Assembly: GCA_902566805.1 (NCBI GenBank)
Contig: CACFKJ010000005.1
Span: forward strand, 1-41,434
Direction: 5' to 3'
DNA: 41,434 nt
Source: an uncultured Pelagibacteraceae bacterium
Lineage (GTDB): Bacteria; Pseudomonadota; Alphaproteobacteria; Pelagibacterales; Pelagibacteraceae
Shown here in pieces: positions 20,949 to 22,897 of the stretch. The translations under genes and the position numbers were made by a program. The notes beneath the pieces were generated by a model. The model saw only the letters and a program-made list of their open reading frames with translations, did not search any database and had not been told where the DNA came from. Position 1 is the stretch's first letter. The number at the start of each line of letters is the position of its first letter.

Positions 20949-21623
20949 TTAAATAATTGATATAAATCTTTTTGAAAAATTTTCTAATTTTTGAGAATAT
21001 TTTCTTGAGTCACTACTAAATTTATTAAATGCTACAACTGCAGGTATTGCTGCAAGAAGTCCCAATGCTGTTGCAAATAATGCTTCCGCAATCCCTGGGG
21101 CTACAATTGCTAAACTAGTATTTCTTGAAATTGCTATAGACTGAAATGAATTCATTATGCCCCACACAGTACCAAAAAGTCCGATGAACGGAGCCGTCGA
21201 ACCGACAGTTGCAAGAAAAGTATAATTTTTATCAATTACATTCATTTGTTTTTCAATATTTACTTCTAATATACTTGATAGTCTTTCTGATAAATTGGAT
21301 TTAGATCTAGATTTTATAACAACTTGCATTGTATTTTTAAATACGTTTGCCATTGGATCGTTTATATTTGCAGGTAAATTATTATAAAATGTTTCCGCAG
21401 ATTTAGATTTCCAAAATTTTTCTTCAAACTCTTCAGAACTCTTATTAATTTTATGAAATAATCTTATTTTTTCAATTATAATTGCCCAAGAGAATATTGA
21501 TGCAGCAATTAATATTATTATTACAGACTTAACTATTATATCCGCTCTAACAAATAGCTTAAAAATCGAAAAATCTGCACTACTTGCAAGACCTACTGCC
21601 TGTGTTCCAATCTCTGCTTCCAT
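20949..21623 (-). CDS. tolQ: Tol-Pal biopolymer transporter TolQ
   Basis: MotA/TolQ/ExbB-family proton channel subunit. Seen in 224 residues: three membrane helices (around residues 28-52, 130-155 and 170-192), the family motif FLATVGSTAPFIGLFGTVWG, and GIAEALFATALGLLAAIPAV. It is the first of the tol genes, 54 bases downstream of the RuvC-like gene; ybgC, often found before tolQ, is absent here. Confidence 0.97.
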   Translation of the reverse strand: MEAEIGTQAVGLASSADFSIFKLFVRADIIVKSVIIILIAASIFSWAIIIEKIRLFHKINKSSEEFEEKFWKSKSAETFYNNLPANINDPMANVFKNTMQVVIKSRSKSNLSERLSSILEVNIEKQMNVIDKNYTFLATVGSTAPFIGLFGTVWGIMNSFQSIAISRNTSLAIVAPGIAEALFATALGLLAAIPAVVAFNKFSSDSRKYSQKLENFSKRFISII

Positions 21624-21677
21624 GAATTAGGTTTCACACTAAAATGTGTCATCAATTTGACTTAAAAAATATTAAGT

Positions 21678-22172
21678 TTAATCATTTTTTTGGTAAGTAT
21701 TGTGAAAAAAACTAGCAATTAGAATTGCATCTGCTTTATTAGCATCTTTTTTTTTTGATAAATTCGATGATATATAAGGAAATATTTCAATTGCTTTTGT
21801 CCGGCTTGCGTCTTTTTCTGACTTTATTAATCCAAAATATTTTTTCCATTTTACTGGTCTTATATAATAGGTGGGCAATTGCATTGCAGAACAAATACCT
21901 TTGATAACTCCAAATGATTGTCCAAAATTAAACATACTGGTTACACCTTGACCTGGCATAGCTGAAACTTGCTCTATTACAACATATATGTTTTTTTTTG
22001 ATAAATTTTCAATTCTTTTAAATATTTCATTATAAATTTGTGTTCCATTAACTTGTCTTTTATTCTTTTTTCCATCTGCCATTGTGGGCATTTCGATAAT
22101 TTCTTTAACTTCTCCATTTTCAAAAAAACAAATAGCGCCTGAGATTCCTGGATCTATACCAATTATCAACAT
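21678..22172 (-). CDS. RuvC-like (phage-type) Holliday junction resolvase
   Basis: RNase H-fold nuclease of the RuvC superfamily. Seen in 164 residues: IIGIDPGISGAICF with Asp7, VVIEQVSAMPGQGVTSMFNF with Glu67, and KADAILIASFF with Asp148; these match the acidic active site. The sequence IEQVSAMPGQGVTSMFNFGQSFG is, in shorter form (AMPGQGVTSMFNFG), characteristic of the phage-type RuvC-like family and unlike classical cellular RuvC, which has GxRxTGWG after the first Asp. It sits exactly where alphaproteobacteria keep ruvC-ruvA-ruvB, between yebC and tolQ, but ruvA and ruvB are missing. Likely cleaves four-way junctions; partner motor unknown. Confidence 0.82.
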   Translation of the reverse strand: MLIIGIDPGISGAICFFENGEVKEIIEMPTMADGKKNKRQVNGTQIYNEIFKRIENLSKKNIYVVIEQVSAMPGQGVTSMFNFGQSFGVIKGICSAMQLPTYYIRPVKWKKYFGLIKSEKDASRTKAIEIFPYISSNLSKKKDANKADAILIASFFHNTYQKND

Positions 22173-22180
22173 TAAATTAT

Positions 22181-22897
22181 TTAAACCTTAATATTTGAAT
22201 ATACATTTTGTACATCTTCATCATCTGTTAAATTATCTAAAAAATTAATTATATCTTCTTTTTCTTGTTTTTTTACCTCCAAATATAAAACTGGAACCCA
22301 TTCTATACCCGTAGATAGAAAATTATTTAAATGTTTTTCTAGATTTTTTTTTACATTATATATGTGATTTTTATCGCAATGTATTTCATGAAAACTGTTG
22401 TTAGATTTGCACTCATTTGCTCCTGACTCTATTGCTAATTCAAAAATTTTGTCATCAGAAATTTCTGATTTTTCAATTTTAATTATACCAATTTGACTAA
22501 AATTATGTGATGCCGATCCCTGAGTTCCCAAAGTACCTCCTGATTTTTGAAAAATTGTTCTTAAATTTGATGCCGTTCTATTTTTATTATCAGTAAGAGT
22601 TTCTACAACTACTGCAACTTTATTTGGTCCAAATCCCTCATACCTTATATTTTCAAAATTATGACCCATATTATTTTCAGACTTATCAATCGCCCTTTTA
22701 ATATTTTCTTTAGGCATATTTGCTGATCTCGCAGATTGTATAGCCGATCTAAGTCTTGGGTTCATCTCTGGATCTTTATCCCCAAGCTTTGCAGCTACAG
22801 TTATTTCTTTAGAAATTTTAGTAAAGATTTTGGATTTTTGTTTATCAGCTCTATCCTTTTTATGTTTAATTCCTGCCCAATGAGAATGTCCAGCCAT
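22181..22897 (-). CDS. yebC: YebC/TACO1 family translation or regulatory factor
   Basis: 238-residue YebC family protein. Seen: MAGHSHWAGIKHKKDRADKQ at the start, FTKISKEITVAAKLG, ARSANMPKENIKRAID, YEGFGPNKVAVVVETLTDN and KSGGTLGTQGSASHNF. Formerly treated as a transcription regulator; family members have more recently been linked to relief of ribosome stalling at prolines, like EF-P, which is also encoded in this window (30807). It sits 8 bases upstream of the RuvC-like gene, the canonical yebC-ruvC order. Confidence 0.95.
   Translation of the reverse strand: MAGHSHWAGIKHKKDRADKQKSKIFTKISKEITVAAKLGDKDPEMNPRLRSAIQSARSANMPKENIKRAIDKSENNMGHNFENIRYEGFGPNKVAVVVETLTDNKNRTASNLRTIFQKSGGTLGTQGSASHNFSQIGIIKIEKSEISDDKIFELAIESGANECKSNNSFHEIHCDKNHIYNVKKNLEKHLNNFLSTGIEWVPVLYLEVKKQEKEDIINFLDNLTDDEDVQNVYSNIKV

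Follow-up and report, generated by a model that had tools for sequence, protein, structure and literature searches.

A predicted phage-type Holliday junction resolvase occupies the ruv locus of SAR11 bacteria that lack RuvABC

RuvABC is the standard machine for untangling recombining DNA, and the canonical full order of its chromosomal cluster is yebC-ruvC-ruvA-ruvB-ybgC-tolQ. SAR11 bacteria, the most abundant in the ocean, are known for high recombination. RuvAB has been considered near universal, ruv genes have been said to move little between lineages, and a 2005 survey reported 2 of 117 species with RecA but without RuvAB (PMC1193525). Phage RuvC-like enzymes can work without RuvAB, because the RuvC of phage bIL67 alone restores UV resistance to Escherichia coli lacking ruvABC; enzymes of this kind also cut forks and flaps (PMC3864405). 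For the chloroplast resolvase MOC1, a catalytic tetrad (D116, D118, E175, and E258) and two base-reading residues (Y180 and D183) have been described in NtMOC1 (PMC7078210), and a lysine of ZmMOC1 (K229; PMC11183143) was used here for residue mapping.

The window analyzed here is a stretch of 41,434 nucleotides in contig 5 of a Pelagibacteraceae (SAR11) draft assembly (901 kb, 74% complete). We find that its ruv slot, between yebC and tolQ, holds the intact 164-residue frame that the initial annotation had described as a RuvC-fold protein; coordinates, strand, start, and flanks are confirmed, the latter with Pfam (Table 1). The end of yebC is 8 bases from this gene and the start of tolQ 54 bases away, the adjoining genes are housekeeping genes, and the GC content is 0.285 for the gene and 0.282 for the window. 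The closest named relatives are from Pelagibacteraceae (top, AG-439-G19 with 93% identity). Regarding ybgC, the gene lies between the resolvase and tolQ in some Pelagibacteraceae genera (L083, L084, L086, L088, and L090) and has been lost from this position in the genus of the window.

Table 1. Features of the ruv slot in the window and in other RuvA-less lineages (predicted functions)
Feature	Sequence	Position	Strand	Remark
MOC1/phage-type RuvC-fold Holliday junction resolvase (predicted)	window	21678..22172	-	ATG start, 164 aa
yebC (TACO1/YebC), upstream neighbor of the ruv slot	window	22181..22897	-	Pfam PF01709, 4.8e-50
tolQ, downstream neighbor, marks where the former ruvC-ruvA-ruvB(-ybgC) segment ended	window	20949..21623	-	Pfam PF01618, 3.7e-37
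Gap of 54 bases, ancestral place of ruvA, ruvB, and ybgC	window	21624..21677	.	too short for all three
f2 slot resolvase	L096	1027-1401
f2 slot resolvase	L097	1030-1401
f2 slot resolvase	L098	2318-2698
f2 slot resolvase	L099	1020-1400
f2 slot resolvase	L101	2317-2700
f2 slot resolvase	L102	1012-1395
G370 MOC1-type slot protein	L188	1474-1974
G288 slot resolvase, between yebC and tolQ	L366	1782-2150		longest frame shares bases with the end of yebC
G305 slot resolvase	L469	7436-7942		followed by tilS, ftsH

The 164-aa protein has no match to the Pfam RuvC model (PF02075) and scores 19.8 bits with the NCBIfam RuvC model (NF000711), below its cut-off of 163. It matches the profile of PHROG 1770 (Holliday junction resolvase) at 5e-36 over residues 1–160, and its best solved relative is chloroplast MOC1 (4e-14 with the single sequence and 1.3e-27 by profile). 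An AlphaFold2 model of the protein, built with 18 sequences, has a mean pLDDT of 90.6; a Foldseek search with this model returns MOC1-junction complexes at the top (TM 0.86, rmsd 2.2), with RuvCs at TM 0.50–0.66. Judged by family and by modeled fold, the slot protein is a predicted phage/MOC1-type resolvase and not a cellular RuvC.

Residues D7, E67, and D148, which had been singled out as intact from the window alone, align to the catalytic D116, E175, and E258 of NtMOC1, and in 18 relatives the first two are invariant and D148 nearly so. Three of the 4 acids of the MOC1 tetrad are aligned, while D118 corresponds to Gly9, and a Gly at this position is also found in most phage relatives and in RuvC. 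The phage-type motif reported earlier is likewise present, as AMPGQGVTSMFNFG at residues 71–84. By alignment to MOC1 (K229 of ZmMOC1), K110/K111 would lie near the scissile phosphate, and a base-recognition loop is predicted at about residues 69–80, where Y180 of MOC1 becomes M72 and the cytosine-reading D183 becomes Q75. Because these loop residues differ, MOC1-like cytosine reading is not expected, and the sequence preference of the SAR11 resolvase probably departs from that of MOC1, as far as an alignment can tell.

RuvABC itself is missing from every genome of the order that was searched. The RuvC model PF02075 has no match in the source genome or in any of 118 genomes of the order, and neither RuvA (TIGR00084) nor RuvB (TIGR00635) exceeds its cut-off in any of 98 genomes of the order; as positive controls, the RuvA, RuvB, and RuvC models are each over cut-off in 8–10 of 14 control genomes. 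The initial annotation had held that ruvA and ruvB are missing and not displaced nearby, and this absence now extends order-wide; a ruvA and ruvB elsewhere in the genome together with a second, classical ruvC, which would have refuted its reading, were sought and not found. Sub-cut-off RuvB matches are seen in every genome, the best reaching 34.5 against a cut-off of 299 bits, and are not true RuvB; the frames concerned are of lengths consistent with DnaX, ClpX, Lon, and other AAA+ proteins. The RuvA matches are HhH stretches of 29–32 residues, probably from RecR. The absence of RuvABC in the order is unusual, because 349 of the 386 genomes of the class carry RuvA. The other 37, about a tenth, either lack RuvA or stay below its cut-off, and many of them are 0.6–2 Mb in size.

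Full-length RecG-like proteins are found in all 27 other Pelagibacteraceae genomes searched (600–649 bits, just under the cut-off of 659) and also in most of the sister family, f2, with none found in the source assembly itself (74% complete). Of the earlier proposal of a resolvase that acts alone or with RecG after the loss of RuvAB, the genome-wide search upholds the absence of RuvA and RuvB, and the presence of RecG in the other genomes of the family but not in the source assembly; stand-alone action is inferred.

The local view of the initial annotation can be extended to the whole family, in which the resolvase is a core gene. It is present in 71 of 77 Pelagibacteraceae genomes from 6 genera, closed single-contig ones included, and the 6 misses look like assembly gaps—i.e. 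4 of these genomes lack yebC too and the other 2 have yebC cut short. Of 80 named Pelagibacteraceae loci, 78 show the arrangement yebC-resolvase-tolQ. Because several genera retain ybgC beside the resolvase, the gene sits exactly in the place of ruvC-ruvA-ruvB. In the window's genus, yebC and the resolvase gene mostly abut or overlap by 1–4 bases (78 loci), and this overlap suggests that the resolvase is translationally coupled to yebC. Purifying selection is stronger on the resolvase (dN/dS = 0.063) than on tolQ (0.084) and yebC (0.109).

Analyses of other lineages reveal that in all 5 RuvA-less lineages examined (Pelagibacteraceae, f2, and the alphaproteobacterial families G370, G288, and G305) yebC is directly followed by a gene for a phage-type resolvase; most other RuvA-less slots of the class were outside this sample. 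In f2, a sister family in the same order, RuvA, RuvB, RuvC, and the MOC1-type protein are all absent, and the yebC-tolQ slot holds a conserved PD-(D/E)XK, Hjc-like protein of 123–127 aa with the motif E14...D50...E60-x-K62, whose residues are invariant. This protein exceeds the cut-off of PF24608 (PDDEXK_15; 31–34 bits, cut-off 27), matches PHROG 244 (Holliday junction resolvase) at about 1e-20, and remains under the cut-off of the archaeal Hjc family PF01870 (12.8–16.6 bits, cut-off 21.1). It is found in 37 of 41 f2 genomes vs 0 of 77 Pelagibacteraceae genomes, and marine viral contigs commonly encode it. Its AlphaFold2 model (pLDDT 48) is too poor for the fold to be judged. Matches of its profile in the PDB, to designed helical proteins, were spurious.

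Outside Pelagibacteraceae, the MOC1-type profile matches only 5 of 381 genomes of the class. Three of these matches look like mobile-element copies, and 1 is a true RuvC in a yebC-ruvC-ruvA-ruvB cluster (L191), where the canonical order is read directly. The fifth match is in G370, a distant family with a genome of 1.2 Mb and no RuvA, where a MOC1-type protein takes the second place in a yebC-X-ybgC-tolQ arrangement. The slot of G288 (1.41 Mb, one contig) encodes a protein of 110–122 aa with phage relatives at 43% and a 3.5e-8 match to PHROG 2002 (Holliday junction resolvase), and G305 has a 168-aa PDDEXK_15 protein after yebC (2.3e-21; phage relatives at 44%). RuvA, RuvB, and RuvC were not found in G305 by tblastn (1.26 Mb). 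A tblastn search of the same 1.26 Mb did not find the tol genes or pal either.

The 3 PD-(D/E)XK slot proteins (f2, G288, and G305) have no meaningful pairwise similarity, and the PD-(D/E)XK and RNase H folds are unrelated; for both reasons, several replacements are needed. More than once, RuvABC has given way in situ to phage-type resolvases, with 2 or more unrelated folds among them; their junction cleavage and stand-alone action are inferred. More broadly, we consider it likely that in streamlined alphaproteobacteria one phage-type resolvase has repeatedly come to stand where the whole of RuvABC was encoded, with at least 2 unrelated folds and probably at least 4 events. The ruv locus would then act as a cassette in which resolvases are exchanged, and resolution without RuvAB but with help from RecG would be normal in the ocean's most abundant bacteria.

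A tree of 71 rows, 14 of which are Pelagibacteraceae resolvases, recovers these 14 as a single clade (98/94) within a phage-type group that is separated from RuvC by a 100/100 branch. Forcing the clade to join alphaproteobacterial RuvC, for which one sequence was used, is 66 log units worse and is rejected (p-AU 0.0009). A placement inside normal alphaproteobacterial RuvC, the other result that would have refuted the initial reading, was likewise looked for and not obtained. The initial annotation had left it at a cellular RuvC "replaced or diverged", a core idea that the placement supports, and replacement is the favored form of it because the grouping with alphaproteobacterial RuvC is rejected. 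By comparison, a RuvC root attached to the Pelagibacteraceae resolvases is only 1.7 log units worse and is not rejected (p-AU 0.425). Because this attachment is unsettled, transfer of the gene from phage to host is favored but not proven, and the phage donor is inferred; no donor phage is identified, since the nearest phage sequences are only 45–47% identical to the SAR11 protein. Direct kinship between the SAR11 protein and MOC1 of plants is absent from the best tree and not rejected (p-AU 0.157), and an acquisition shared with the G370 slot protein is also not rejected (p-AU 0.078).

As an alternative, the slot protein could descend vertically from an ordinary RuvC that lost all recognizable likeness once RuvAB was gone, with phages taking up such genes later. 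The gene occupies the ruvC position and the tree does not resolve where RuvC attaches, both of which suit this idea; however, its sequence is far nearer the phage/MOC1 type (5e-36) than RuvC (19.8 bits, cut-off 163), the modeled fold is also nearer MOC1, the grouping with alphaproteobacterial RuvC is rejected, and the slot is evidently refillable, with proteins of unrelated fold in sister lineages. We think such divergence very unlikely. The phage-type sequence might also suggest a recent prophage remnant or an assembly artefact, an origin that is refuted by the family-wide distribution: closed single-contig genomes carry the gene, its neighbors are the same in 78 of 80 loci and are housekeeping genes, and it is GC-adapted and under purifying selection, which leaves this origin a negligible chance.

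A further possibility concerns function—i.e. that the protein is an RNase H-like nuclease unrelated to recombination, or one acting on forks or flaps, and that junctions are resolved by a YqgF/RuvX-type enzyme (we have no YqgF data) or by RecG alone. The activity of phage RuvC-like enzymes on forks and flaps speaks for it, but among solved structures its closest relatives are enzymes dedicated to junction resolution, and in 4 other RuvA-less lineages this slot encodes proteins annotated or modeled as Holliday junction resolvases. Because those lineages keep resolvases there, the best explanation is that the position adjoining yebC supplies the resolvase, and we give the other function only a slim chance.

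We regard it as highly probable that the ruvCAB segment was displaced in place in the Pelagibacteraceae ancestor by a phage-derived MOC1-type resolvase that acts as a motor-free homodimer, with RecG left for branch migration. Direct support comes from the family, fold, conserved active site, synteny, RuvABC absence, purifying selection, and recurrent slot refilling, whereas junction cleavage, RuvAB independence, the RecG partnership, and a phage as donor are inferred, without biochemistry. Specifically, ruvC-ruvA-ruvB of a yebC-ruvCAB-ybgC-tolQRAB-pal cluster would have been replaced in situ by the RNase H-fold enzyme, whose gene probably belongs to the yebC operon in expression. The homodimer would most likely bind four-way junctions without a RuvAB motor, the loop at about residues 69–80 would flip bases at the crossover, and D7, E67, and D148 would make 2 symmetric metal-dependent nicks. 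Branch migration would fall to spontaneous movement and to RecG, the remaining known junction motor in Pelagibacteraceae.

A whole order that includes SAR11 is thus without RuvA, RuvB, and RuvC, and SAR11 relies instead on a phage-type resolvase whose cleavage is inferred. That phage enzymes unrelated to each other have refilled the slot again and again amounts to a natural experiment, which suggests that the cutting step cannot be lost and that the motor can. It makes testable a long-standing question, namely whether a dedicated RuvAB motor is required for bacterial recombination in vivo, and the link with MOC1 may help explain the origin of organelle resolvases. We found no account of such a replacement in the SAR11/Pelagibacter literature on RuvC, RuvABC, RuvB, and the Holliday junction; subscription papers were outside this scope, and an earlier mention is possible. 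The enzyme family is known; as far as checked, no earlier description covers the repeated, in-place substitution of phage-type resolvases for the ruv locus.

Compared with known systems, the SAR11 protein shares with chloroplast MOC1 (PDB 6JRF, 6KVO, and 8KFR) its fold over 162 aligned columns (TM 0.86), the catalytic acids, and the WK(K/S/A) lysine. MOC1 is a resolvase that needs no partner to cut junctions in vitro, whereas cleavage by the SAR11 protein is only inferred; the two are 25–29% identical and differ at D118 (Gly9, as in RuvC), D183 (Gln75), and Y180 (Met72), and the SAR11 gene is bacterial, chromosomal, and in the ruv slot. The phage resolvases of PHROG 1770 (e.g. epsilon15 p24, Planktothrix phage PaV-LD, and Stenotrophomonas phage Bhz63) belong to the same family by profile, with 39–43% identity over most of the length and an AMPGQG(V/T)(T/S)SMF-like motif common to several of them and the SAR11 protein. 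In contrast to these, the SAR11 gene is core and chromosomal across the family, lies beside yebC, and forms its own clade. Cellular RuvC (E. coli and alphaproteobacterial) has in common with it the place after yebC, the RNase H fold, and the D7/E/D acids, but the SAR11 protein is recognized by neither the Pfam nor the NCBIfam model of RuvC, reaches TM 0.50–0.66 only, and sits in a genome without RuvA and RuvB. RecU in Firmicutes is likewise a nonorthologous replacement of RuvC by another resolvase (PMC1193525); however, RuvAB is kept alongside RecU, whose gene rarely lies near ruvAB and stands outside the ruvC slot, whereas in SAR11 RuvAB is lost and the replacement is in place.
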